Source of the DNA: a virus
DNA: 37,968 nt
IMG/VR virus record: IMGVR_UViG_3300045006_000162
Coordinates: 1 to 37,968 of that record
Strand: one strand, 5' to 3'
Part shown: in pieces, positions 6,271 through 37,968 of the stretch
How positions within the stretch are numbered: the first letter of the stretch is position 1
How the letters are laid out: each line of letters begins with the position of its first letter
Program-made: the position numbers and the translations under genes
The notes under the pieces: generated by a model
What the model was told of the DNA's origin: nothing
What the model saw: the letters and a program-made list of their open reading frames with translations, nothing else
The model's database searches: none

Positions 6271-6720
6271 CTACATCTTGTAGTTGAATCTATTCAAATA
6301 ATCATCATATGATTTTATAACTTGTTTATAATTATCGTTAAACAAACTTGAAGATATAATAAAATCGGCCGTTGATCTATTGCACGCTGTCGGAACATTA
6401 TACAACACACAAATTCTAAGAAGCGCCTTCACGTCAACGTCGTGACTCATTGTGGTTAGTGGATCATTGAAGAATATTACTATATCTATTTCAGATTCGG
6501 ATATTAAAGCTCCAAGTTGTTGATCTCCTCCTAACGGACCACTTTTCAACAAAGATATCTCAACATCTTCTCCTACAACTTCTTTTATTAATCTACCAGT
6601 TGTTCCTGTGCACACTAATTTATGATTTAATAAAGTGCTTTTATTAAATTCTACCCACTCTATTAAATCTTTTTTACAATTATCGTGAGCGACAAGAGCT
6701 ATATTTTTTATATTATCCAT
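6271..6720 (-). CDS. mgsA: Methylglyoxal synthase
   Basis: This 149-residue protein matches the full bacterial methylglyoxal synthase, which converts dihydroxyacetone phosphate to methylglyoxal and phosphate and bypasses lower glycolysis. Key parts are present: V-A-H-D (H12, phosphate site), T-G-T-T-G (39-43), S-G-P-L-G-G-D-Q-Q with the catalytic Asp at 66 (Asp71 in E. coli), F-F-N-D-P-L (D86) and H-D-V-D-V-K-A-L-L-R with H93 and D96 (H98 and D101 in E. coli). The end T-A-D-F-I-I-S-S is also conserved. So the enzyme looks active. Its ATG overlaps the stop of a small membrane-protein gene by 8 bases. It would be an auxiliary metabolic gene that diverts host triose phosphate or makes a toxic electrophile. 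No neighbour in the window belongs to the pathway. Confidence 0.95.
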   Translation of the reverse strand: MDNIKNIALVAHDNCKKDLIEWVEFNKSTLLNHKLVCTGTTGRLIKEVVGEDVEISLLKSGPLGGDQQLGALISESEIDIVIFFNDPLTTMSHDVDVKALLRICVLYNVPTACNRSTADFIISSSLFNDNYKQVIKSYDDYLNRFNYKM

Positions 6721-7079: not shown

Positions 7080-8345
7080 TCAATAAATTTTATAAAATCC
7101 GTTATTTTTTGTTTTTGTTTTTATTAAATTCAACAATTCAAATACATCTCTTTGCACTTTCAAACCGTTTCCAGACTTATAACCCACAGGATAACATTTT
7201 TCGACAAGATTTTCAGCCATATAGAAATCTTCTAAAGAAAAGATTAATTTGTCGAAAGTAGAATCTTCTTTTGGTGACATATCTGGTCCTTTGTTGCATT
7301 CCAAAAGATATGGATTTAAATCTTTATCCACTATAAAATCTGTTCCAAATATTTGAACACAAAGATTATCATCCAAGTTTCTATGCTCACCGAAATACGG
7401 TTTTACCGCATCCAAAACTAAACGCATCTTTTCATTTATTCTTTCAAATAAAATATTTGGATTTTTATATCCATTATCCAATAAATAAGTTTTCAACTGC
7501 TTCATTGTCATAGGATTATCATCATAAACTTTAAGATCCAGATTATAACTTGTTATGTTATTTTCAAAATCTAGTGTTGAATCATCATATTCTTTATTGC
7601 TGTATATACAAGTTCCATATTTATTTATGTACCCCTCGAGAACTCTATTTTTAAAAGTAAGAAGAAGATATATTCTCAGATTAAGTTTTCTTTTATTTAC
7701 TAAAAGAAGATTGCGTTTATATTCTTGAACTAATGTAAATTCATTATCTTTTGCTTTACGAATTTCTTCTATATCTCTTGTTAATTGTATTCCTTCTTTT
7801 CTTTGTTTTCTTTTTTTAAGAATATAGATTTCACCTTCTTTGTATCTTTCTTCAAATAATTTTACGTGCTCTTCATTCACTAAAACAAACGTCTCAGGCA
7901 AAAGGGTTGCGGCTTTATTTCTTCCATAAGTTTTTTCTAATATATTCCATAGCCAAGTTTTTCCAACTAAATTATCACATCCCTCAATTCCAAATATAAT
8001 TTGATGATCACTAGTTGGTTTTAGATGTTCTAATTCAATTTCAATCCTATTGTATCCACTAGGGACGTATATGTCCCAATTATCATCTTTATCCAAAATT
8101 TCATAGAATTTATATTTCTTTAAAATTCTACTAAAAACATTTCCACCTTCACAATAATATGTTTTATATTTTCTAGGATCTTCTTTTATAATATCAGAAA
8201 ATTTAGGCAAGCTCATATATTTATGATAAATATTGATTATAGCATCGGCCACCTTTTTATCTTTATCAACAAGATATCTAAATCTGTCTGTTTTGGTTCT
8301 ATAACCATCAATCAGCTTTGAAAACAATGACATTGGATCAGACAT
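7080..8345 (-). CDS. Tubulin-tyrosine-ligase-like ATP-grasp protein
   Basis: The 421-residue protein carries an ATP-grasp ligase domain of the tubulin-tyrosine ligase (TTL) type in its second half. Visible elements are Y-I-L-K-K-R-K-Q-R-K-E-G-I (174-186, nucleotide-binding Lys), L-V-Q-E-Y (205-209), K-L-N-L-R-I-Y-L-L-L (220-229), F-G-T-D-F-I-V-D (333-340) and L-L-E-C-N-K-G-P-D-M (347-356), where E349 and N351 should bind magnesium. TTL-family enzymes ligate an amino acid, often Glu, Gly or Tyr, to a protein tail. The first 110 residues match nothing I know. Its start overlaps the stop of the R2K ATP-grasp gene in a TAATG junction, so the two ligases are almost surely made together. The substrate is unknown. 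Confidence 0.82.
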   Translation of the reverse strand: MSDPMSLFSKLIDGYRTKTDRFRYLVDKDKKVADAIINIYHKYMSLPKFSDIIKEDPRKYKTYYCEGGNVFSRILKKYKFYEILDKDDNWDIYVPSGYNRIEIELEHLKPTSDHQIIFGIEGCDNLVGKTWLWNILEKTYGRNKAATLLPETFVLVNEEHVKLFEERYKEGEIYILKKRKQRKEGIQLTRDIEEIRKAKDNEFTLVQEYKRNLLLVNKRKLNLRIYLLLTFKNRVLEGYINKYGTCIYSNKEYDDSTLDFENNITSYNLDLKVYDDNPMTMKQLKTYLLDNGYKNPNILFERINEKMRLVLDAVKPYFGEHRNLDDNLCVQIFGTDFIVDKDLNPYLLECNKGPDMSPKEDSTFDKLIFSLEDFYMAENLVEKCYPVGYKSGNGLKVQRDVFELLNLIKTKTKNNGFYKIY

Positions 8346-9196
8346 TATTTTTTAATTTCCCAAAAATCGTTATATTTTTCAATTACTAAATCATTCATCG
8401 CACTGACAATCAAATCTTTGTCCATGTGATATAATCCAGCACAACATAAAGAATTTATTTCTATTACTCTATATTCTTCATCGCCATCAAAATCTACACA
8501 AGCGATGTCTATTGTATAAGCCGGATCTGGAAAATCTGTTGGTAAATTTTCTATGACAATATTAGCAAAAATAAGAGCTCTTTCATCTACAGTTCTTTCC
8601 TCTGTTTTTTCTCCATTCATCATATAAACACAACCATCCACCACTTTCCCATTTATTACAGCAAATCTGCTTTCTTTTAAAATATTTTTACAAGGAGATA
8701 TGACAACTAATTGATCTATATCTACTCCGCCATAAGAATTTATAAGAGTTTCATATTCAGATTCAAAATTATCCATGTTTATAATTTGTCCCGGAAAAGT
8801 CTTATATCCATTTGACGGTCGAATGAATATTTTTGATTCAAAATAAGATTTCCACCTTTTCAAATCATTTAATCCCATCATACGATAAGTTGAATTTAAA
8901 AGATGTTTACCAAACATACCATAATATTTATAGCACTCATAATTATCTATCGTAAGAAATATACCCGGAACGAAATCAGTTTTTGCATATAATTCTCTTC
9001 CACGTTGGAGAGATCCATAAAAAATGGTACAATCTTTATTTGTGAATTTATTTTTAATTTGTTTATTGAAATTGAATTTTAAATGATCTGTATCATCGAA
9101 CAAATAACATTTAGCCCCCGATTTTTCAATCGCTGCGACTAATTGTTCCTCATACTCGGGAAACATATGTTTTTCGACAATCCAAACTGGTTTCAT
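8345..9196 (-). CDS. ATP-grasp protein, R2K-clade-like peptide/amide ligase
   Basis: This 283-residue ATP-grasp enzyme resembles the R2K clade found in phages and bacteria, predicted to be amidoligases acting on peptides or proteins. Seen in order: F-I-R-P-S-N-G-Y-K-T-F-P-G (124-136, the clade Arg and Lys), K-N-I-L-K-E-S-R-F-A-V-I-N-G-K-V-V (170-186, the second Lys/Arg region), Y-T-I-D-I-A-C-V-D (227-235) and R-V-I-E-I-N-S-L (243-250), whose Glu and Asn bind metal. The N-terminal 90 residues probably form the pre-ATP-grasp domain. It is joined by a one-base overlap to the TTL-like ligase. The reaction (amide bond formation with ATP to ADP) follows from the family. The target is not evident. 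Confidence 0.8.
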   Translation of the reverse strand: MKPVWIVEKHMFPEYEEQLVAAIEKSGAKCYLFDDTDHLKFNFNKQIKNKFTNKDCTIFYGSLQRGRELYAKTDFVPGIFLTIDNYECYKYYGMFGKHLLNSTYRMMGLNDLKRWKSYFESKIFIRPSNGYKTFPGQIINMDNFESEYETLINSYGGVDIDQLVVISPCKNILKESRFAVINGKVVDGCVYMMNGEKTEERTVDERALIFANIVIENLPTDFPDPAYTIDIACVDFDGDEEYRVIEINSLCCAGLYHMDKDLIVSAMNDLVIEKYNDFWEIKK

Positions 9197-9942: not shown

Positions 9943-11565
<1,623 letters not shown>

Positions 11566-12269: not shown

Positions 12270-13088
12270 TTAGAACCAATGTCCATATCTATATTCATCA
12301 TCTCCATAATCCCATCTACTATATCTATCAATATTTTTATCTTTTGTTTTATCTCCAATTGGAAGAGACTCCCAATCCATAAGACAAGCAGCTCTTGCCA
12401 AATCAGATAAGAATTTTATATCTGTTCGCTCGCCGTGTGAGTGCTCGCCAAAATAACCAACCGACAAATTTGTCACTTCGGGTATAATACCAATAAAAGA
12501 AGCGCTATCTGTAAATATACCAGTTGAATCTGGAACATATTTAAAACTTGAATTTTTATCATTTAACATTTTTGCCAAAGCTAACGCAAATTCTTGACTA
12601 CATCCGCGTCTTCCGATTTGGTGAGTAATAACTGAATGGTAAGCTCTTCTGTCAAAAGACACCATTCTATCATAATCTAAAAAGAAATTTCTATCTTTTT
12701 GAATTATACAATGAGCTCCTACCATGCCACTTTCTTCACCTTGAAAGAAATAATAAGTTCCTGGAACTTTTCTGTAAATCATATAAAGAAGAATGGTCAT
12801 TCCATTCTTATCATCACCGCCAAGAACACTATAGCCGTCAGTAGAAATCATATTACCTTGAATAACATGATTTACTTTCTGATATCTATAACATGCAGTG
12901 TCCATATGACAAGTAAAAATAGTTCTGCTGTCTCCTATTGTCATATAATAATTACCGCATCCATCTTCTCGAATTCTTTTTGGAAAATATTTCTCTAGTG
13001 TATACTCCATACCATATGGAATTGTGTATGAAGTTAAATCTAAAAATAATTGTTTTATGTTCATATTTTTCTCTATTATCTTTGCCAT
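12270..13088 (-). CDS. M28/M20-type zinc aminopeptidase-like protein
   Basis: The 272-residue protein has every ligand of a two-zinc exopeptidase: T-C-H-M-D-T (H61, D63), L-G-G-D-D-K-N-G (bridging Asp 92), Q-G-E-E-S-G-M-V-G (E118 and E119, catalytic base and ligand), S-F-D-R-R (D146) and G-E-H-S-H-G-E (H216 or H218). It lacks the lid domain of larger M20 enzymes and is nearer M28/M42 in size. It should remove residues from peptides in the cytoplasm, as no signal peptide is seen. The start at 13088 overlaps the previous stop; an internal ATG at 13064 (M-N-I-K-Q-L) is an alternative. Such a peptidase is unusual cargo for a phage. Its substrate is unknown. Confidence 0.85.
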   Translation of the reverse strand: MAKIIEKNMNIKQLFLDLTSYTIPYGMEYTLEKYFPKRIREDGCGNYYMTIGDSRTIFTCHMDTACYRYQKVNHVIQGNMISTDGYSVLGGDDKNGMTILLYMIYRKVPGTYYFFQGEESGMVGAHCIIQKDRNFFLDYDRMVSFDRRAYHSVITHQIGRRGCSQEFALALAKMLNDKNSSFKYVPDSTGIFTDSASFIGIIPEVTNLSVGYFGEHSHGERTDIKFLSDLARAACLMDWESLPIGDKTKDKNIDRYSRWDYGDDEYRYGHWF

Positions 13089-13777: not shown

Positions 13778-14353
13778 ATGATAAAAAGATCTCATTCTTA
13801 TATAAAAGAATCTGCTTCTACAGAATACAATATTGGAGATCATGTTGTGGTCAATGGAAATGTAGATGGTAAGATATTCAATGATTTTAAAGGCACCGTG
13901 TCAGACAAAGCGATTCTTATAGTATTTACAGATAGAGATGAAAACGGTAAATGTAAATATTATAAATATAAAGGAATATCTTATTATATAATAGAGGAAG
14001 ATTGGTGGGTGTCGCCGTACAATTTAAGTTATACGAAAATGCCAAAAAAAATATATTCAAAAATTGATCCTTATGGTGAAGAAAATTGGGAGGAAGAAAT
14101 TACAGAAACATTATATGTTTCCTCTTTAGGAACAGAAATTAAAAAATTAAAAAAAGAATATGATATAGTTGGAGAATTAAAAATAAATGCTATTAGATGT
14201 GGTAATTATAATCTTGCTGCTGTTTGTAGAGCTAAAGAAAGAACTTTATCAAAAAGACTCAAAAAATTAATAGAAAAAGGAGAAGAAGAAAAAGAAAACG
14301 ATGGGGGGAAAATAAAATGGTATAATAAAGGAAATTTTGAAGAAGAAAATTAA
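13778..14353 (+). CDS. Protein with capsid-targeting-like N-terminus, P-Y-G-E-E-x-W motif and UVR-like C-terminal helix pair
   Basis: The 191-residue protein starts M-I-K-R-S-H-S-Y-I-K-E-S, a predicted prohead-protease site after I-K-E. Residues 17-90 look like a small beta-barrel (Y-N-I-G-D-H-V-V-V-N-G, K-G-T-V-S-D-K-A, Y-Y-I-I-E-E-D-W-W-V) of SH3 or KOW style. Next comes D-P-Y-G-E-E-N-W-E-E-E (97-107, bases 14066-14089). The end holds a helix pair with N-Y-N-L-A-A-V-C-R-A-K-E-R like the UvrB/UvrC motif. The last residues K-W-Y-N-K-G-N-F-E-E-E-N resemble the tail of the gene at 14703. The AT box lies four bases upstream. I infer a late, possibly packaged protein. Confidence 0.8.
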   Translation: MIKRSHSYIKESASTEYNIGDHVVVNGNVDGKIFNDFKGTVSDKAILIVFTDRDENGKCKYYKYKGISYYIIEEDWWVSPYNLSYTKMPKKIYSKIDPYGEENWEEEITETLYVSSLGTEIKKLKKEYDIVGELKINAIRCGNYNLAAVCRAKERTLSKRLKKLIEKGEEEKENDGGKIKWYNKGNFEEEN

Positions 14354-19654: not shown

Positions 19655-19843
19655 TTAAGGCATCCAATCCTGAGCAACTTTAAATTGATCATCAAAATTA
19701 ATATCATCTTTGTGCCATTCTTGTTTCTGACATTTTGGACATTCTATCAAACTAATATTTGTAGGCCATTCGAAATTGTTTCCACAATCACATTCTATAT
19801 TAAGAATATTGATTTGTGAACTCCATTTAGTTAAAATTTTCAC
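19655..19843 (-). CDS. Small zinc-ribbon protein
   Basis: The 62-residue protein has a four-cysteine zinc-ribbon pattern: I-E-C-D-C-G-N-N-F in the first half and I-E-C-P-K-C-Q-K-Q-E-W in the second, about 15 residues apart. The first knuckle is C-x-C rather than C-x-x-C. The rest is short: an N-terminal K-I-L-T-K-W-S-S-Q-I-N-I strand and an acidic tail ending Q-D-W-M-P. Zinc ribbons of this size bind nucleic acid or proteins. The start overlaps the stop of the 102-residue gene in ATGA-like fashion. Specific role unknown. Confidence 0.75.
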   Translation of the reverse strand: MKILTKWSSQINILNIECDCGNNFEWPTNISLIECPKCQKQEWHKDDINFDDQFKVAQDWMP

Positions 19844-20148
19844 AACATAGTTAGTTTTTTTATATCATCTTCTACTTTATCGTAGATTTCTTCAAATTCA
19901 TTCTGTATGATACCTAATATTTCATCAGCTAATTCCATTCTTTCGTCTAAATCATCGCTAGCCAATAAATCTTCTACTAATCTAGTTATATCTGGATTTT
20001 CCAAGTTTTTTAAAAATCTTATAATATTTCCACCTGGCTCATAATCCAAACTTCCTTTTTCTAATTTATCATCTCTATATTTTTCCTCACTATAAGGATC
20101 AATTTCTTGATTAGTTTGCTCAAAATATTTTTTAATATACTTGCTCAT
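19840..20148 (-). CDS. Acidic helical protein with N-terminal D-P-Y-S-E-E-K-Y motif
   Basis: The 102-residue protein starts M-S-K-Y-I-K-K-Y-F-E-Q-T-N-Q-E-I, like the small-protein family here, then has D-P-Y-S-E-E-K-Y (residues 17-24, bases 20077-20100). This is a divergent version of the recurrent motif with Ser for Gly and Tyr for Trp. The remainder is acidic and helical: N-P-D-I-T-R-L-V-E-D-L-L-A-S-D-D-L-D-E-R and I-I-Q-N-E-F-E-E-I-Y-D-K-V-E-D-D. The start is 24 bases past the topoisomerase stop. A TTAATATATAC box lies across that stop, 17 bases upstream. Function unknown. Confidence 0.75.
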   Translation of the reverse strand: MSKYIKKYFEQTNQEIDPYSEEKYRDDKLEKGSLDYEPGGNIIRFLKNLENPDITRLVEDLLASDDLDERMELADEILGIIQNEFEEIYDKVEDDIKKLTML

Positions 20149-23480: not shown

Positions 23481-23552
23481 AATTTTTAATATATAGATTT
23501 GATGATAACACAATTTAATTTTTAATATATAGATTTGATGATAACACAATTT
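23481..23552 (+). repeat. Perfect 36-base tandem duplication of promoter box plus start codon
   Basis: The 36-base unit (23481-23516) is repeated exactly at 23517-23552. Each copy holds TTAATATATAG, a five-base spacer, an ATG and four further codons (I-T-Q-F). The first ATG (23502) reads into the second unit and stops after M-I-T-Q-F-N-F. Only the second ATG (23538) opens the 172-residue gene. Confidence 0.95.
23522..23532 (+). promoter_or_regulatory. Candidate late promoter box TTAATATATAG (second of two copies)
   Basis: The box is five bases before the ATG at 23538. An identical box at 23486-23496 precedes the abortive first ATG. Confidence 0.5.
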
Positions 23553-24056
23553 GAAAAATTTGAATTAAAAAATCTTTTTAAGAAGAATTATAAGAAACTT
23601 TCAAAAGGATATGAATTTGTTCCAATAATAGATGAATTAGGTGAATATATTGCTAGAAACTGGAACGGTCCTAGAGTCATTAATGTCAATAGAGATGTTA
23701 TTGAGGAATATTCTAGATTATCATATGAATATGTCAAAGAAAATTTATTAGGTAAAATAATTAGATTTGTGCCCGAGAAAAAAAATTTCAAAGTCAATAA
23801 TATGGTTAATGTGGAAGGCATTATGGGAGGATATATAGATATGCCATTTCCAAAAGAAGGTTGTTTATATATCAAATTAATAGATATACATAAAATAAGA
23901 AATTATAATTTAATTTATCATTTCGTATCCGACGAATACTTGAAATATTTAATAAGTTGGCAAACTATTAATAATACGTGGATTGCTAAAAGAGTAAATA
24001 GAATAATAACCAAAGAAGATCCTTATGGTGAAGAAGATTGGGAAACGGATCAATGA
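23538..24056 (+). CDS. 172-residue protein ending in D-P-Y-G-E-E-D-W motif
   Basis: ATG at 23538 is chosen over the TTG three bases upstream. The N-terminus M-I-T-Q-F-E-K-F-E-L-K fits the basic/aromatic style of the small-protein family but has no clear L-x-E cut site. The body is unrecognised, with L-G-E-Y-I-A-R-N-W-N-G-P, L-L-G-K-I-I-R-F-V-P and N-M-V-N-V-E-G-I-M-G-G-Y-I-D. It closes with K-E-D-P-Y-G-E-E-D-W-E-T-D-Q (motif bases 24018-24041), so here the motif is the C-terminus. Promoter box and start are duplicated upstream. Confidence 0.8.
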   Translation: MITQFEKFELKNLFKKNYKKLSKGYEFVPIIDELGEYIARNWNGPRVINVNRDVIEEYSRLSYEYVKENLLGKIIRFVPEKKNFKVNNMVNVEGIMGGYIDMPFPKEGCLYIKLIDIHKIRNYNLIYHFVSDEYLKYLISWQTINNTWIAKRVNRIITKEDPYGEEDWETDQ

Positions 24057-24394: not shown

Positions 24395-24730
24395 ATAAGA
24401 ATCTGGTATGAAATTAAAATTGATATTAAAGGAAAAGAACCAGGTAAAGGCCAGTATTCTTTATCACAAGATATAGAAACTAATAATAAAGAAGAAAGAT
24501 TAAAACTTTTAAAATGTTTGATTAGAAATTTATACGTTTTTATGAATAAAAAAGGCTTAGATCCAGATAGCATTATAAAAAAAGAAGAAGAAAAAATAAG
24601 AAAAGAACAAGAACAAGCCGATCTTAGAGATAAAATGAGATGCGTTGATCCGTATGGTGAAGAACAATGGGAAAAAGATGATGTTGGTCAGCAAGAGGCG
24701 GGGGGCTTTTGGGGGTCCAAGTGGAGCTAA
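24395..24730 (+). CDS. Downstream half-gene with V-D-P-Y-G-E-E-Q-W motif and no standard start
   Basis: This frame is open from base 24350 and encodes R-I-W-Y-E-I-K-I-D-I-K-G-K, a helical part (E-E-R-L-K-L-L-K-C-L-I-R-N-L-Y), a Lys/Glu helix, then V-D-P-Y-G-E-E-Q-W-E-K-D-D (24647-24670) and a Gly-rich end A-G-G-F-W-G-S-K-W-S. No in-frame ATG occurs before 24542; TTG at 24518 is the first usual alternative. AGGAG at 24385-24389 sits five bases before an ATA codon at 24395, so non-standard initiation is possible. The other reading is that it is the C-terminal half of the gene at 24108. The last 45 bases are unusually G-rich for this genome. Confidence 0.55.
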   Translation: MRIWYEIKIDIKGKEPGKGQYSLSQDIETNNKEERLKLLKCLIRNLYVFMNKKGLDPDSIIKKEEEKIRKEQEQADLRDKMRCVDPYGEEQWEKDDVGQQEAGGFWGSKWS

Positions 24731-27279: not shown

Positions 27280-27873
27280 ATGATAACGTCGTTTAACGAA
27301 TATATAACAGAATCGAAATTTACTGATACTATTAAAAAAATAATAGAATATCCAGTAGTTAAATTCATAGAGAATAAAGTCAAGGGACTTAGCGATGATG
27401 AAAAATTATTAAAAATAGCTAAAATAGCTAGAAATATAGACAAAATATTTTGTGCTAGCTTTTCTTGGTATTATTATACAATATTTTTTATGGCTTCTTT
27501 AATAGGAACACAAATACCACATTTTATTAACAAAGTACCTCAAACTAATGCTACCACGAAAATTTTTATTGTTTCTTGTATTTATCTCTTTGGATTCTAT
27601 TGTTATATAACTCTTACTAAAAAATATAGAATGCTTGCAAAAGATTATTATAGAAAAATTAGAGCAGCTTATGTTAATTCCAAAAAAATTAATAAAATCA
27701 ATGATGATCCCTATGGTGAAGAGAATTGGGGAGATGAGTTGGAAATAGTAGCTAAAGCAAATAAAATTAGATATCATAGAGGCAAACTCCTAGGCGGAGC
27801 TAATGAATTTTGGGAGGAATATATGCCATTCTTTGGAGTTGGAAAAGATAAAGCGGATGTTCGACCAGATTAA
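27280..27873 (+). CDS. Two-span membrane protein with capsid-targeting-like N-terminus and P-Y-G-E-E-N-W motif
   Basis: The 197-residue protein starts M-I-T-S-F-N-E-Y-I-T-E-S with a predicted prohead-protease cut after I-T-E. An amphipathic helix follows. Two hydrophobic spans come next, W-Y-Y-Y-T-I-F-F-M-A-S-L-I-G (about 62-78) and I-F-I-V-S-C-I-Y-L-F-G-F-Y-C-Y-I (95-110). Then a basic helix and N-D-D-P-Y-G-E-E-N-W-G-D-E (141-153, bases 27706-27729). The tail has G-G-A-N-E-F-W-E-E-Y. If packaged and cleaved, it could be a membrane effector delivered with the DNA, but no direct evidence is available. Confidence 0.8.
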   Translation: MITSFNEYITESKFTDTIKKIIEYPVVKFIENKVKGLSDDEKLLKIAKIARNIDKIFCASFSWYYYTIFFMASLIGTQIPHFINKVPQTNATTKIFIVSCIYLFGFYCYITLTKKYRMLAKDYYRKIRAAYVNSKKINKINDDPYGEENWGDELEIVAKANKIRYHRGKLLGGANEFWEEYMPFFGVGKDKADVRPD

Positions 27874-27989: not shown

Positions 27990-28493
27990 ATGTTAAATTA
28001 TGAAAATTACATACAAGAACAGAAAAAATATAAACCTGGAATAAGTAGAGATTTTTGGAATGCTCCAAACTGGTTTTCTATGGGGAGAATAGTAATTTAT
28101 AGAAAATGGATAAAGATGATAAATTATATATTTCATGACGTATTATATAATAAAAGAGGAGTTGTTGTAAATGAGGTAGATCCATATGGAGAAGAGAATT
28201 GGGATGATGATAATGATATTCAAAACGATCAAGAATTAAAAGATATTATATGTAATTTTTTTGAAGAATTTCTACCTAATACATCAACTCCAGAAAGGAA
28301 TATGAGAAATATTATTGAAGAAATTCAGGAAAATAAATATAAGATTGAGAATATTGTGAGATTATTAAAAATTATAAAAATTTATCTTCAATATTTTTCT
28401 CCAAAAGAGATGAGTTTTTATAAATTGGGGTCGAATAATACTCCTTGGATATTCCATATAGTCAAATCAAATACAGTCAAATTAAAAAAATAA
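27990..28493 (+). CDS. Protein with capsid-targeting-like N-terminus and P-Y-G-E-E-N-W motif
   Basis: The 167-residue protein starts M-L-N-Y-E-N-Y-I-Q-E-Q with a predicted cut after I-Q-E. A basic aromatic part follows (F-W-N-A-P-N-W-F-S-M-G-R-I-V-I-Y-R-K-W-I-K). Then V-D-P-Y-G-E-E-N-W-D-D-D-N-D (residues 63-76, bases 28179-28202) and a helical C-terminal half with F-F-E-E-F-L-P-N-T and a basic end. It lies between the truncated and intact copies of the L-T-E-E-I-G-F gene. Function unknown. Confidence 0.78.
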   Translation: MLNYENYIQEQKKYKPGISRDFWNAPNWFSMGRIVIYRKWIKMINYIFHDVLYNKRGVVVNEVDPYGEENWDDDNDIQNDQELKDIICNFFEEFLPNTSTPERNMRNIIEEIQENKYKIENIVRLLKIIKIYLQYFSPKEMSFYKLGSNNTPWIFHIVKSNTVKLKK

Positions 28494-33494: not shown

Positions 33495-34064
33495 TTAATT
33501 TTCCCATTGCTCTTCATCAAACGGATCTATGTGTCGCATAGCTTTTTTCTTTTCCTCTCGTTTTAATTCCCATTCAGTTCTTTCAGCATTTATTTGATTT
33601 TTTATTAATTCTTTTTCTTCGGCCGAAATTTCTTTTTGTTTAAAATCATTTGCTAAATCTTTTAATTTGTCTTCTTTTACAAATGTGATGATTCCTTCAT
33701 CAGGTCCGCCTCGTGTTTCAGATATAACTAAACTCTTCATTATTGTTGGTATGGTGTACATATCGTAATAATTTCTATTTTGACTATTTTGATACATACT
33801 ACCTTTACTTATATTCTTTTTAAATCTTTGAATAAAACCATCAATATATTCAAAAGGAAGAATTACTTTTTGGACTGGTGCCTTTACGTGTTTATTACCA
33901 ACTTTAACATATCTTGGAAATTCTTCATAGTGTTGCTCACGATAAGATTTTCTTATTTCGTCTAAGTGAGAATACACAAACGCATCAACATCAAAATTAT
34001 TCGGAATTAGAATAACATAACTTGTTGAGCTACTATTACTTACAAAACCACTTCTTATTTTCAT
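33495..34064 (-). CDS. G-F-V-S-N-S-S paralogue 4 with C-terminal D-P-F-D-E-E-Q-W motif
   Basis: The 189-residue protein starts M-K-I-R-S-G-F-V-S-N-S-S-S-T-S-Y-V-I, the N-terminus shared by four consecutive genes. After it comes L-I-P-N-N-F-D-V-D-A-F-V-Y, similar to the next paralogue (Y-L-P-N-D-F-D-F-D). A Gly-rich R-G-G-P-D-E-G-I-I-T-F segment matches E-G-D-G-I-I-R-L in that paralogue. A charged helix leads to the end H-I-D-P-F-D-E-E-Q-W-E-N (33504-33527). The start overlaps the previous stop in ATGA. I know similar N-termini from uncharacterised bacterial and phage proteins but no function. Confidence 0.82.
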   Translation of the reverse strand: MKIRSGFVSNSSSTSYVILIPNNFDVDAFVYSHLDEIRKSYREQHYEEFPRYVKVGNKHVKAPVQKVILPFEYIDGFIQRFKKNISKGSMYQNSQNRNYYDMYTIPTIMKSLVISETRGGPDEGIITFVKEDKLKDLANDFKQKEISAEEKELIKNQINAERTEWELKREEKKKAMRHIDPFDEEQWEN

Positions 34065-34606
34065 AATTCTTTAAATTTTTTTACTTTATTCGATTCATTT
34101 GATTGATCGACATATCCTTTTAATTCATCGTCATCCCATTGTTCTTCACCATAAGGATTTATACCCTTCATTTTATCTTTTAATATTTCTCTTCTTATTT
34201 TTTTATTAGATACAACGTCTTTGAATTTATTATTAATTTCTCTATTTTTATTATCTATTGAAGCCATTTTATCAAATATTTCTTTATTGATCAGTCTAAT
34301 AATTCCATCTCCTTCGTGACACGCTTCGTGCTCCACAAAAAGTATATAATCTCTAAGAAATTGATATAATCCCCAGAATTTCTGACCGTTCTCTCCTTCG
34401 TAACAAACACCACTTTTTTTAAGTTGATCTATATCTAATGAAGTTATTCCTTGAATTTCTTCATAATAATAATTTTTCTTCTTTTTATTTTTGATTTTTT
34501 CCATTTCAGATTCCATAACAGAATCAAAATCAAAATCATTTGGCAAATATATCAAAATGAAATTTGATCCACTACTATTACTTACAAAACCAGTTCTTAT
34601 TTTCAT
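34061..34606 (-). CDS. G-F-V-S-N-S-S paralogue 3 with N-P-Y-G-E-E-Q-W motif
   Basis: The 181-residue protein starts M-K-I-R-T-G-F-V-S-N-S-S-G-S-N-F-I-L, then Y-L-P-N-D-F-D-F-D. The middle has Y-E-G-E-N-G-Q-K-F-W-G-L-Y-Q-F-L and H-E-A-C-H-E-G-D-G-I-I-R-L-I-N. Then a charged helix and I-N-P-Y-G-E-E-Q-W-D-D-D-E (34136-34159), with Asn in place of the usual first Asp, followed by about 22 more residues. It pairs with paralogue 4 as the more similar of the four. It starts 16 bases after the preceding stop and ends in an ATGA overlap. Confidence 0.82.
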   Translation of the reverse strand: MKIRTGFVSNSSGSNFILIYLPNDFDFDSVMESEMEKIKNKKKKNYYYEEIQGITSLDIDQLKKSGVCYEGENGQKFWGLYQFLRDYILFVEHEACHEGDGIIRLINKEIFDKMASIDNKNREINNKFKDVVSNKKIRREILKDKMKGINPYGEEQWDDDELKGYVDQSNESNKVKKFKEL

Positions 34607-34622
34607 TTTATTTAATTATTTT

Positions 34623-35030
34623 TTAATATTCCCATTTTATATCGTTGTCATCTACTTTTGCGACGTAACGCAAAAACCAATATAAATCAAAATTATCCAT
34701 AATAGTTCCAAGATGTATCATTTCATCTGTTTCCTTTAAAACTTTCCATTTATCATGCTTAGATATACGATAACTACCATCTCCCCAATTAAGATTTAAA
34801 GCGTCTCTGAGTTTTTCAATAGAAATTTCTTTTTCGTCCCATTCCTCTTCGCCAAAAGGATCTTCTTTACTATAAATTCTTTTTTGATTTTTCTTTTCTT
34901 TTTCTAAAAGTTCATAACAATATTCTACATGATTTTTAATCATATAAATTTGCTCCTCTGTTAAATTTTTTTTGCTTATAATATAACTAGATGAGCTACT
35001 ATTGCTTACAAAACCAGTTCTTATTTTCAT
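34623..35030 (-). CDS. G-F-V-S-N-S-S paralogue 2 with D-P-F-G-E-E-E-W motif
   Basis: The 135-residue protein starts M-K-I-R-T-G-F-V-S-N-S-S-S-S-S-Y-I-I, then S-K-K-N-L-T-E-E-Q-I-Y-M-I. The motif K-E-D-P-F-G-E-E-E-W-D-E (34839-34862) is at about residues 55-66. The last third has L-G-T-I-M-D-N-F-D-L-Y-W-F-L-R-Y-V, matched in paralogue 1 by L-W-T-I-M-D-N-F-D-I-R-W-F-L-E-N-V. So paralogues 1 and 2 are a recent pair that share the whole layout, and 3 and 4 form another. It is joined to paralogue 1 by an ATGA overlap. Confidence 0.82.
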   Translation of the reverse strand: MKIRTGFVSNSSSSSYIISKKNLTEEQIYMIKNHVEYCYELLEKEKKNQKRIYSKEDPFGEEEWDEKEISIEKLRDALNLNWGDGSYRISKHDKWKVLKETDEMIHLGTIMDNFDLYWFLRYVAKVDDNDIKWEY

Positions 35031-35449
35031 TTTATTCCTATACTTTTATGAAAAGCGTCTATAGCTTTTCTTTTACTTTGTTTCTTTATGTCTATTGGAT
35101 CTACTTCAACTACATTTTCTAAAAACCAACGAATATCGAAATTATCCATTATTGTCCACAAAAAAAGATTATTTTTTCTATTTTCAACTATCCATTCATC
35201 TCCTTTATTTATATATTCCATCATCATTTCCAATTTTCCAAGACCATCCATATCTTGCCAATTTTCTTCGCCATAAGGATCAATATTTTCAAATTCATTA
35301 AATTTAACAATTTTTCTATTTTTAATAATGTTTTTACAAGTTTCTAGTTGATGATTTATCATATAAATCTGTTTCTCTGACAAATTTTTTTTTGATACAA
35401 TGAAACTCGATGCACTACTATTACTAACAAAACCTAATCTTAATTTCAT
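35027..35449 (-). CDS. G-F-V-S-N-S-S paralogue 1 with D-P-Y-G-E-E-N-W motif
   Basis: The 140-residue protein starts M-K-L-R-L-G-F-V-S-N-S-S-A-S-S-F-I-V-S-K, then K-N-L-S-E-K-Q-I-Y-M-I-N. The motif N-I-D-P-Y-G-E-E-N-W-Q-D lies at bases 35258-35281. The conserved W-T-I-M-D-N-F-D-I-R-W-F-L block follows, and a basic tail ends G-I-K. It opens with an ATGA overlap on the 90-residue gene, which makes five genes in a near-continuous coupled series. The Ser/Asn run after G-F-V looks like a small, exposed or modified segment, but no function is known. Confidence 0.82.
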   Translation of the reverse strand: MKLRLGFVSNSSASSFIVSKKNLSEKQIYMINHQLETCKNIIKNRKIVKFNEFENIDPYGEENWQDMDGLGKLEMMMEYINKGDEWIVENRKNNLFLWTIMDNFDIRWFLENVVEVDPIDIKKQSKRKAIDAFHKSIGIK

Positions 35450-35749: not shown

Positions 35750-36817
35750 TTAAATTTTATAAATTGGACAGTCTCTATTACATTTTAATAATTTTTCTTT
35801 AAATTCTTTTGTCTTTTCATTATACCAAACATCTTTAAGAAAATCATTACAATTTACAACCGATATACCTTCTTTCCAATCTTCATTTTCACAAAAACTA
35901 CATGGATAATAAGCGCCATCAATAGATATGTATGTTGAATAAATGGCAGCTTCGCATTTTTCTACCATTGTTTCCATCATCTTATAATTACTTCTTCCCT
36001 CAATAGCTTTTAAAAATTTAGTGCTTCCACAACTATCAAAACCAATCGGTATATTATTTTCTATTGCTTTATCTACAATTTTAGTAAATTTTTCTTGACT
36101 TAATTGTGTATAACCACATTCTGCGGCTCTTCCTTTTGTTTTAAGTGAAAGAAAAACAATGGCATTTAATTTTTTTAGACGATCATCTGTTTTTATATCG
36201 TCCAATGTTTGCATGGCATCTTCAAAAGTTTCCTCACTCAACATAAAATGAATATTTGTTTGTTTTAAACCTCTATCTGTCAATTCTTTAACAGCTCTAT
36301 ATGTTAAATCTTTATCATATTTAGATATGGCACAAGCTCCTATAAAAGAAGCTATTTTATCATAAAGCTCACTTGTCATTCTACCGCCATTAATAGTTAT
36401 ATTTGGTATTATACCTTTGATATGACAATAATCTATGATTCGCCACAATTCAGGATTCCCATCGATATTTCCTATTCCAAGTGCTATTTGCGTTACAGAA
36501 GGCGGAAGTTTATTCAATATTTTTCTAAAAGTATCAAATGACATATTTTTGCCTTTTGGATTATTTGATTTATAACAAAATTTACATAGACCATTTACTC
36601 CATTACAAATAGTTGATATTTCTATATCTGCAATCTCTGGAAGACCAACAGATATGTCTCCATCGTCTTCTTTTGTTTTACCCCAGCGAACAAAGAATCC
36701 GTTTTTCTTATTAAATATAAAATTATAGCTTTCGCTTTCTAAAATTTTTGTATTCTTGTCTTCGATTATTCTGGCTATTTCATCATTAGACAATTTTATT
36801 TCATAATGTTTGTTCAT
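35750..36817 (-). CDS. Radical-SAM enzyme with Cys-rich SPASM-like C-terminus
   Basis: The 355-residue protein has a radical-SAM cluster motif with unusual spacing, C71-N-G-V-N-G-L-C78-K-F-C81 (C-x6-C-x2-C rather than C-x3-C-x2-C). Then come a typical barrel with G-N-I-D-G-N-P-E-L and T-I-N-G-G, and a C-terminal Cys set (C263, C288, C306-x2-C309, C323, C346-x3-C350) like auxiliary iron-sulfur domains of the SPASM type. Such enzymes often modify peptides or proteins by radical chemistry. The gene lies two bases after the SET-domain gene and directly upstream of five coupled small genes, four of them with one N-terminal signature. The substrate is unknown; those neighbours are candidates. Confidence 0.87.
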   Translation of the reverse strand: MNKHYEIKLSNDEIARIIEDKNTKILESESYNFIFNKKNGFFVRWGKTKEDDGDISVGLPEIADIEISTICNGVNGLCKFCYKSNNPKGKNMSFDTFRKILNKLPPSVTQIALGIGNIDGNPELWRIIDYCHIKGIIPNITINGGRMTSELYDKIASFIGACAISKYDKDLTYRAVKELTDRGLKQTNIHFMLSEETFEDAMQTLDDIKTDDRLKKLNAIVFLSLKTKGRAAECGYTQLSQEKFTKIVDKAIENNIPIGFDSCGSTKFLKAIEGRSNYKMMETMVEKCEAAIYSTYISIDGAYYPCSFCENEDWKEGISVVNCNDFLKDVWYNEKTKEFKEKLLKCNRDCPIYKI

Positions 36818-36819
36818 GA

Positions 36820-37218
36820 TTAAATAATTTTAGTGTGAGTTCTTCCATCTTTCCAATAATTTTCATCTCCGTAATAAGTGCATATTTCATCATCTTTTTT
36901 AATATTTTTTATAGCAAAAAAAATGAACAATTCATTTACGTCGTCTGTTTCCCAACTGGCATTAGGTGAATTGGAATGATTATAAATACAAGCAAAACCA
37001 AACGGTATAACTTGATTATTTGGTCTGGTTCTTGGGAAATTAAATCTATAATCTATAAATATAGAAGAAGCTTCATTAGCTGATGTTGGAATTTTTAAAA
37101 AATATGTCTCTTCTAATATTTCACCCGCTTTTATATCTTCTCTGGCGAATACTCCCCAACCGTGTATTGGAGATCGTCTTACCTCGAGTTTGGTATTAAA
37201 AATTAATCTATCTTTCAT
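36820..37218 (-). CDS. SET-domain protein, predicted lysine methyltransferase
   Basis: The 132-residue protein is a bare SET domain. The parts are G-W-G-V-F-A-R-E-D-I-K-A-G-E (20-33, SAM site), F-A-C-I-Y-N-H-S-N-S-P-N-A (75-87, the N-H-S pseudoknot motif) and F-A-I-K-N-I-K-K-D-D-E-I-C-T-Y-Y-G-D (101-118, catalytic Tyr). Its size is near the 119-residue viral SET protein of chlorovirus PBCV-1, which methylates host histone. Here a bacterial or phage protein would be the target. The stop is two bases before the radical-SAM start, so the two are likely made together. No post-SET cysteines are seen. Confidence 0.87.
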   Translation of the reverse strand: MKDRLIFNTKLEVRRSPIHGWGVFAREDIKAGEILEETYFLKIPTSANEASSIFIDYRFNFPRTRPNNQVIPFGFACIYNHSNSPNASWETDDVNELFIFFAIKNIKKDDEICTYYGDENYWKDGRTHTKII

Positions 37219-37283: not shown

Positions 37284-37968
37284 ATGATAAAAAAATTTAA
37301 AATATTCGAACAAATTAGAGCTGAAATAGATCCGTATGGTGAAGAAGACTGGGAAGTGGACAATTTAACGCCTGTTCTACAAATTGCAAGAAAACAAGAA
37401 AAACCATTTGATGAGATAACAACTTTATATTGTTATGATAATCAATTAACTAGTTTGGAAGGAACAGAAAACTTGGTTAATCTTCAGCGTTTTTCTTGTT
37501 CTTATAATCAATTAACTAGTTTAGAAGGAATAGAAAACCTGGTTAATCTTGAAGTATTTTCTTGTAATAGTAATCAATTAACTAGTTTAGAAGGAATAGA
37601 GAACCTGGTTAATCTTAAATATCTTTATTGTAATGATAATCAATTAACTAGTTTGGAAGGAACAGAAAACTTGGTTAATCTTCAGCGTTTTTCTTGTTCT
37701 TATAATCAATTAACTAGTTTAGAAGGAATAGAAAACCTGGTTAATCTTAAAGAATTTTATTGTGATAATAATCAATTAACCACTTTAGAAGGAATAGAGA
37801 ATCTAGTTAATCTTCAACGTCTTTATTGTAATGATAACCAATTAACCACTCTAGAAGGAATAGAAAACCTGGTTAATCTTCAAAGTCTTTCTTGTGATAA
37901 TAATCAACTAACTAGTTTAGAAGGAATAGAAAACATGGTTAATCTTGAAGTATTTTCTTGTAATAGTA
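37284..37968 (+). CDS. Leucine-rich-repeat protein with N-terminal D-P-Y-G-E-E-D-W motif, 3' end outside the window
   Basis: The open frame starts M-I-K-K-F-K-I-F-E-Q-I-R-A-E-I, then D-P-Y-G-E-E-D-W-E-V (16-25, bases 37329-37352). From residue 50 it is a run of at least eight 22-residue repeats of the form N-Q-L-T-S-L-E-G-I-E-N-L-V-N-L with variable Tyr/Phe/Cys positions between (F-S-C-S-Y, L-Y-C-N-D). Repeats of this kind make a curved beta solenoid that binds proteins. The DNA units are 66 bases and nearly identical. The gene continues past the edge. The N-terminus is like that of the candidate cargo proteins but has no clear L-x-E site. Confidence 0.85.
   Translation, partial: MIKKFKIFEQIRAEIDPYGEEDWEVDNLTPVLQIARKQEKPFDEITTLYCYDNQLTSLEGTENLVNLQRFSCSYNQLTSLEGIENLVNLEVFSCNSNQLTSLEGIENLVNLKYLYCNDNQLTSLEGTENLVNLQRFSCSYNQLTSLEGIENLVNLKEFYCDNNQLTTLEGIENLVNLQRLYCNDNQLTTLEGIENLVNLQSLSCDNNQLTSLEGIENMVNLEVFSCNS
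37435..37968 (+). repeat. Tandem 66-base repeats in the leucine-rich-repeat gene
   Basis: Eight 66-base units are visible, the last cut by the edge. A 116-base stretch at 37435-37550 recurs exactly at 37633-37748 (198 bases, three units, later). A block at 37551 recurs at 37947 (six units). This shows recent multi-unit duplication. Confidence 0.9.

Follow-up and report, generated by a model that had tools for sequence, protein, structure and literature searches.

Two ATP-grasp ligases of different families are encoded side by side in the genome of a phage related to the largest one known, the 735-kb Mahaphage LR756501. One belongs to the tubulin-tyrosine ligase-like (TTL) family and the other to the R2K clade. 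The explanation that we favor, with moderate confidence, is that these are two protein-modifying ligases, recruited separately, that share an operon, the R2K enzyme being directed at a host protein and the TTL-like enzyme at the C-terminus or acidic tail of a protein. The most likely reaction for the R2K enzyme would be ligation, in the course of infection, of amino acids or of a short peptide to a protein of the host, and for the TTL-like enzyme the addition of at least one amino acid to the C-terminus, or to an acidic tail, of some protein present in the infected cell. R2K enzymes have already been reported from jumbo phages, and the phage enzymes have been predicted to modify host proteins (PMC7824862, PMC4431377). 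What R2K enzymes do is a question of interest in jumbo phages and equally with regard to eukaryotic CDC123. TTL-type genes, on the other hand, are almost never seen in phages. The same phage lineage carries a protein motif, DPYGEExW, that is real and lineage-wide, and which may outweigh the ligase pair in importance.

The overlapping ligase genes

The stretch of DNA that we analyzed, referred to as the window, is the entire 38-kb virus fragment IMGVR_UViG_3300045006_000162 (positions 1 to 37,968). The upstream gene of the pair encodes the R2K-clade ligase (8345..9196, minus strand; 283 amino acids) and is followed by the gene for the TTL-family ligase (7080..8345, minus strand; 421 amino acids). 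The two ORFs meet in a TAATG stop/start overlap (8343..8347, minus strand) with one base in common, as an earlier note on this DNA had described. That note had also assigned the proteins to the TTL and R2K types, both of them peptide-bond-forming ATP-grasp families, and the Pfam scores of both are above cut-off. The TTL-like protein matches PF03133 (E-value 8.7e-25; 88 bits, cut-off 20.1) and, among PDB sequences, vertebrate TTL and TTLL6 across the ATP-grasp core (E-values 1e-9 to 3e-9). The R2K protein matches R2K_2 (2.1e-9; 37.9 bits, cut-off 26.2), R2K_3 (5.9e-9; 36.8 bits, cut-off 26.3) and PHROG 7313 (8.8e-47).

The earlier note further held that the two enzymes are made together. We infer that they are probably co-transcribed on one transcript, and to this extent the claim stands. 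However, the overlap itself proves little, because overlaps of 1-8 bases are found at 10 of the 35 junctions between same-strand neighbors within the window.

Upstream of the pair are genes for GroEL (9943..11562, minus strand; C-terminus ...QQPMY) and a zinc metallopeptidase (12270..13088, minus strand; PHROG 4191, 9.7e-60), which are 77% and 71.9% identical, respectively, to their LR756501 counterparts, the peptidase also being syntenic there. Downstream of the TTL gene lies one for a protein with a methylglyoxal-synthase-like (MGS) domain (6271..6720, minus strand; Pfam MGS, 8.7e-14). Elsewhere in the window, genes for a SET-domain protein (36820..37218) and a radical SAM/SPASM protein (35750..36817) adjoin on the minus strand; these are possible further protein-modifying enzymes of the same phage.

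Active-site residues

The TTL-like enzyme shares with the TTL/TTLL family (PF03133; PDB 3tig, 6vzq) the whole ATP-grasp core. Its metal ligands D336, E349 and N351 (E349-C-N351) are kept in both phage enzymes, i.e., those of the window and of LR756501. It differs from the family in being phage-borne, in having its own N-terminal region and in one residue of the K-x-D-x-R motif of TTL (K198, D200, R202). While K220 and R224 preserve the Lys and Arg of this motif, the Asp, present in TTL and TTLL6, is replaced by Asn222 in the window enzyme and likewise by Asn in that of LR756501. TTL carrying both K198A and D200A serves as a dominant-negative (PMC10987652). Since K-x-D-x-R is a functional motif, homology to the TTL family stands, but tyrosine-ligase activity is not to be assumed, and Asn222 may lower the activity or alter the use of donors.

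The same substitution and the same dominant-negative mutant could be taken to mean that the protein no longer has ligase activity and now serves as a binding protein. We consider this unlikely, given that the metal residues and the Lys and Arg corresponding to K198 and R202 are all retained. Moreover, the active-site region is nearly unchanged between phage copies that are 65% identical overall, and such constancy indicates that these residues are under selection. The strict conservation of the remaining TTL residues thus argues against decay.

With respect to the R2K enzyme, comparison to R2K-clade ligases (R2K.2, DUF4343), whose family features are two RAGNYA lysines (or Lys/Arg), E-x-R and E-x-N (PMC4431377), reveals the same domain order, an E-x-R motif (E175-S-R177), an E-x-N motif (E246-I-N248) and the second RAGNYA lysine. 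In an alignment of nine phage members, this lysine (K132) is invariant, and the E-x-N Asn is missing from several relatives. The window enzyme differs from the clade in its TTL gene neighbor and at the strand-2 Lys position, which is Arg126 here and Arg in 8 of the 9 aligned phage members. The earlier note's description of the metal-binding motifs as intact therefore holds for E-x-N, which is kept in both enzymes, but has to be qualified for the Asp-to-Asn222 change in the TTL-like enzyme and the Lys-to-Arg126 change in the R2K enzyme.

Both genes encode real ATP-grasp ligases, which are probably active and probably co-expressed. Single-sequence AlphaFold models of the TTL and R2K proteins (pLDDT 35 and 36) were too poor for use.

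Distribution and linkage of the two genes

Among 50,697 phage records, searched up to an E-value limit of 5, the sole matches to the TTL-like enzyme were LR756501 and LR756503, which are two records of the 735-kb Mahaphage. The window and LR756501 enzymes are 64.8% identical. No TTL was found in plasmids, no close relatives of either ligase emerged from scans of viral and genome contigs, and the limited set of literature that we searched contained no report of a phage TTL-family enzyme. R2K relatives, by comparison, occur in 47 phage records, mostly of jumbo phages, many of which carry R2K without TTL.

The surroundings of the TTL gene are partly conserved in LR756501, where SbcC, peptidase, GroEL and TTL follow one another in the same order (identities of 72% for the peptidase, 77% for GroEL and 65% for TTL). 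However, three unrelated small ORFs there take the place of the window's R2K gene and two other small ORFs. The sole R2K detected in LR756501 lies about 300 kb from the TTL locus and is only 27-30% identical to that of the window, which is closer to the R2K of the 462-kb phage LR756500 (125 bits, versus 77 for LR756501). The neighbors of R2K genes vary: the LR756501 gene follows an HD-domain gene and a 111-amino-acid gene, an order also seen in a motif-bearing contig (G016); in LR756500 a PARP-family gene is located just upstream (L128:6220-7494 and 8001-8897); and next to the R2K gene of phage Phosso is one for a T4-type RNA ligase, a GNAT gene also being close by. Because of this variation, we regard R2K as a mobile accessory gene that is found among other candidate host-modifying genes. 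The R2K-TTL junction is lineage-specific and, with one comparable relative, gain of R2K in the window and its loss in LR756501 are indistinguishable.

These data bear on the proposal in the earlier note that the pair forms a two-step protein- or peptide-tagging system, for which conserved co-occurrence of the genes was the suggested check. The linkage is absent in LR756501, which has TTL without an adjacent R2K, no other TTL was found, and R2K is present in many jumbo phages that lack TTL. Since related phages keep the ligases unpaired and, as set out below, the motif follows neither of them, a two-step system is not supported.

Separate recruitment does have a precedent against it, in that R2K.2-R2K.3 operons of firmicutes and actinobacteria encode two ATP-grasp ligases acting in sequence (PMC4431377). 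The window resembles these operons in having two different, adjacent ATP-grasp ligases in one operon, but differs in having a TTL as the partner and in a pairing that the nearest relative lacks. Many ATP-grasp pairs are known to make small peptides (PMC4431377), and the pair might accordingly produce a small peptide metabolite rather than modify a protein. Next to the pair, there is neither a transporter gene nor one for an acyl carrier or another biosynthetic protein, and the pair is not conserved. To our knowledge, moreover, the TTL-family members characterized so far all act on proteins. For these reasons we think it improbable that the product is a small peptide, and we continue to favor two separately recruited protein-modifying ligases.

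Candidate acceptors of the TTL-like enzyme

Phage tubulin was ruled out as the acceptor. The tubulin family PF00091 had no match in LR756501, a complete relative from the enzyme's own lineage and the scope of this search (the window being a fragment of just 38 kb); of the 14 control genomes, 13 were positive. This sets the phage enzyme apart from the TTL/TTLL family, and its acceptor would presumably not be tubulin. The target of a TTL without detectable tubulin would show what else TTL-type chemistry does.

A candidate acceptor is the C-terminal tail of GroEL. The only conserved neighbors of TTL in LR756501 are GroEL, the peptidase and SbcC, and the order of GroEL and TTL is the same in both phages. 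Both GroELs (window 9943..11562, minus strand; L001:7326-8939) end in PMY, which replaces the usual Met-rich end, even though the preceding tails differ. Tyrosine is the last residue in about 4% of ORFs, and the final residues of the GroELs from five phages that lack TTL are M (three times), D and E. It is therefore conceivable that the TTL-like enzyme modifies the neighboring GroEL tail in a cycle of the tyrosine type, in which the nearby metallopeptidase might take part. Nevertheless, the pattern comes from only two related phages, and phage GroELs adjoin many genes. No GroEL was found in the other motif-bearing contigs or the other Mahaphages, so the GroEL-TTL neighborhood has been compared once only. 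The peptidase is also common among phages without TTL, occurring in 368 phage records, nearly all of them lacking TTL, which weakens the idea that TTL and peptidase are a dedicated add-and-remove pair. On balance, we see modification of the GroEL tail as a doubtful prospect.

The DPYGEExW motif and its relationship to the ligases

The earlier note had reported that a PYGEExW motif is common in this genome. This observation is real: there are 8 copies in the window, plus one PYGEE without the W, and 103 in LR756501, versus 0 for the reversed pattern. Many copies also occur in about 30 IMG/VR contigs, and the lineage as a whole has 253 instances in 212 distinct predicted ORFs. Asp precedes the P in 250 of the 253, and D, P, Y, G and W are nearly fixed in addition to the glutamates. 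Synonymous codons vary freely among the copies, which implies that the motif is selected as protein sequence. As regards a host origin of the motif, 257 Gb of genome contigs yielded 35 single matches, versus about 30 expected by our own pattern estimate, and we rejected this possibility.

The motif is located at the extreme C-terminus, shortly after the N-terminus or between domains, with up to seven copies per protein. None of the recognized enzymes in the window carries it. On the plus strand of the window, it reads DPYGEENW at 14069..14089 (ORF 13778..14353), 27709..27729 (ORF 27280..27873) and 28182..28202 (ORF 27990..28493), and DPYGEEDW at 24021..24041, the C-terminus of ORF 23535..24056, and at 37332..37352, behind a capsid-targeting-like N-terminus (ORF 37263..>37968); a further DPYGEExW copy is at 24650. 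On the minus strand are NPYGEEQW at 34136..34156, in an ORF with an NSSS-type N-terminus (34061..34606), and DPYGEENW at 35258..35278 (ORF 35027..35449).

The earlier note had viewed the motif as a natural acceptor of the ligase pair, and R2K and TTL could in principle jointly build a peptide tag on the motifs of phage proteins. The motif, TTL and an R2K are all present in both the window and LR756501, and in 95 of the 212 ORFs the motif lies at most 5 amino acids from an acidic C-terminus, as in TTL and RimK targets. However, there are zero copies of the motif in six R2K-carrying jumbo phages that we examined, and no true TTL was found in 29 motif-bearing contigs, which are fragments; weak matches to the TTL model in two of these (G007, G020) are due to a RimK-like enzyme. 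In addition, the gene pair is not conserved, and the near-fixed D, P, Y, G and W fit a binding motif. We thus conclude that this pair probably does not use the motif as its acceptor, and joint construction of such a tag strikes us as very unlikely. Both phages in which a TTL is known also have the motif, so there may be a link between TTL and the motif, although these two phages share common ancestry. No motif, GroEL or TTL was found in three other complete Mahaphages.

The RimK-like enzyme is a third ATP-grasp protein of about 520 amino acids (Pfam RimK, 6.4e-21; minus strand, L126:1159-2739 and LR756501 86987-88531). Like the window pair, it is a probable amino-acid-to-protein ligase (L126, L134-L137), but it is encoded by a gene separate from them. 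It occurs in LR756501 and three motif-bearing contigs, the other tested contigs, all fragments, being without it, and in 0 of the 6 motif-free R2K phages. If any ligase reads the motif, the RimK-like enzyme is a better candidate than R2K, although its co-distribution with the motif is likewise confounded by common ancestry. That DPYGEExW is a genome-wide address tag, covalently extended by the TTL-like and/or RimK-like ligases, appears highly improbable to us; if true, its presence on more than 100 proteins in the lineage of the largest phage would constitute a phage-encoded protein-tagging code.

A different role is suggested by the N-termini of the motif-bearing proteins. N-termini of the T4-like capsid-targeting type (for the role of this peptide in T4, see PMC9026906) are found in 55 of 193 motif ORFs and in 66 of 934 motif-free ORFs, compared with about 2 and 8, respectively, for shuffled N-termini. 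Motif-bearing proteins are about five-fold enriched in such N-termini, although these numbers are approximate, since the pattern is home-made and the ORF calls come from a simple script. This enrichment favors the view that the motif would act as a docking or packaging signal for virion-carried proteins, and DPYGEExW is probably such a signal not described before.

Variant motifs also occur in the window, namely DPFDEEQW (ORF 33495..34064), DPFGEEEW (34623..35030) and DPYSEEKY (19840..20148); the first two ORFs are tandem paralogs starting with MKIR(S/T)GFVSNSSS. Three contigs of about 3.3 kb from Bacteroidetes/Bacteroidales MAGs (L148, L170, L175) show the motif at almost identical positions and are probably phage contigs binned with their host. 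Finally, one 892-amino-acid ORF (L118) has seven copies of the motif between domain-sized stretches, resembling seven fused single-domain proteins.
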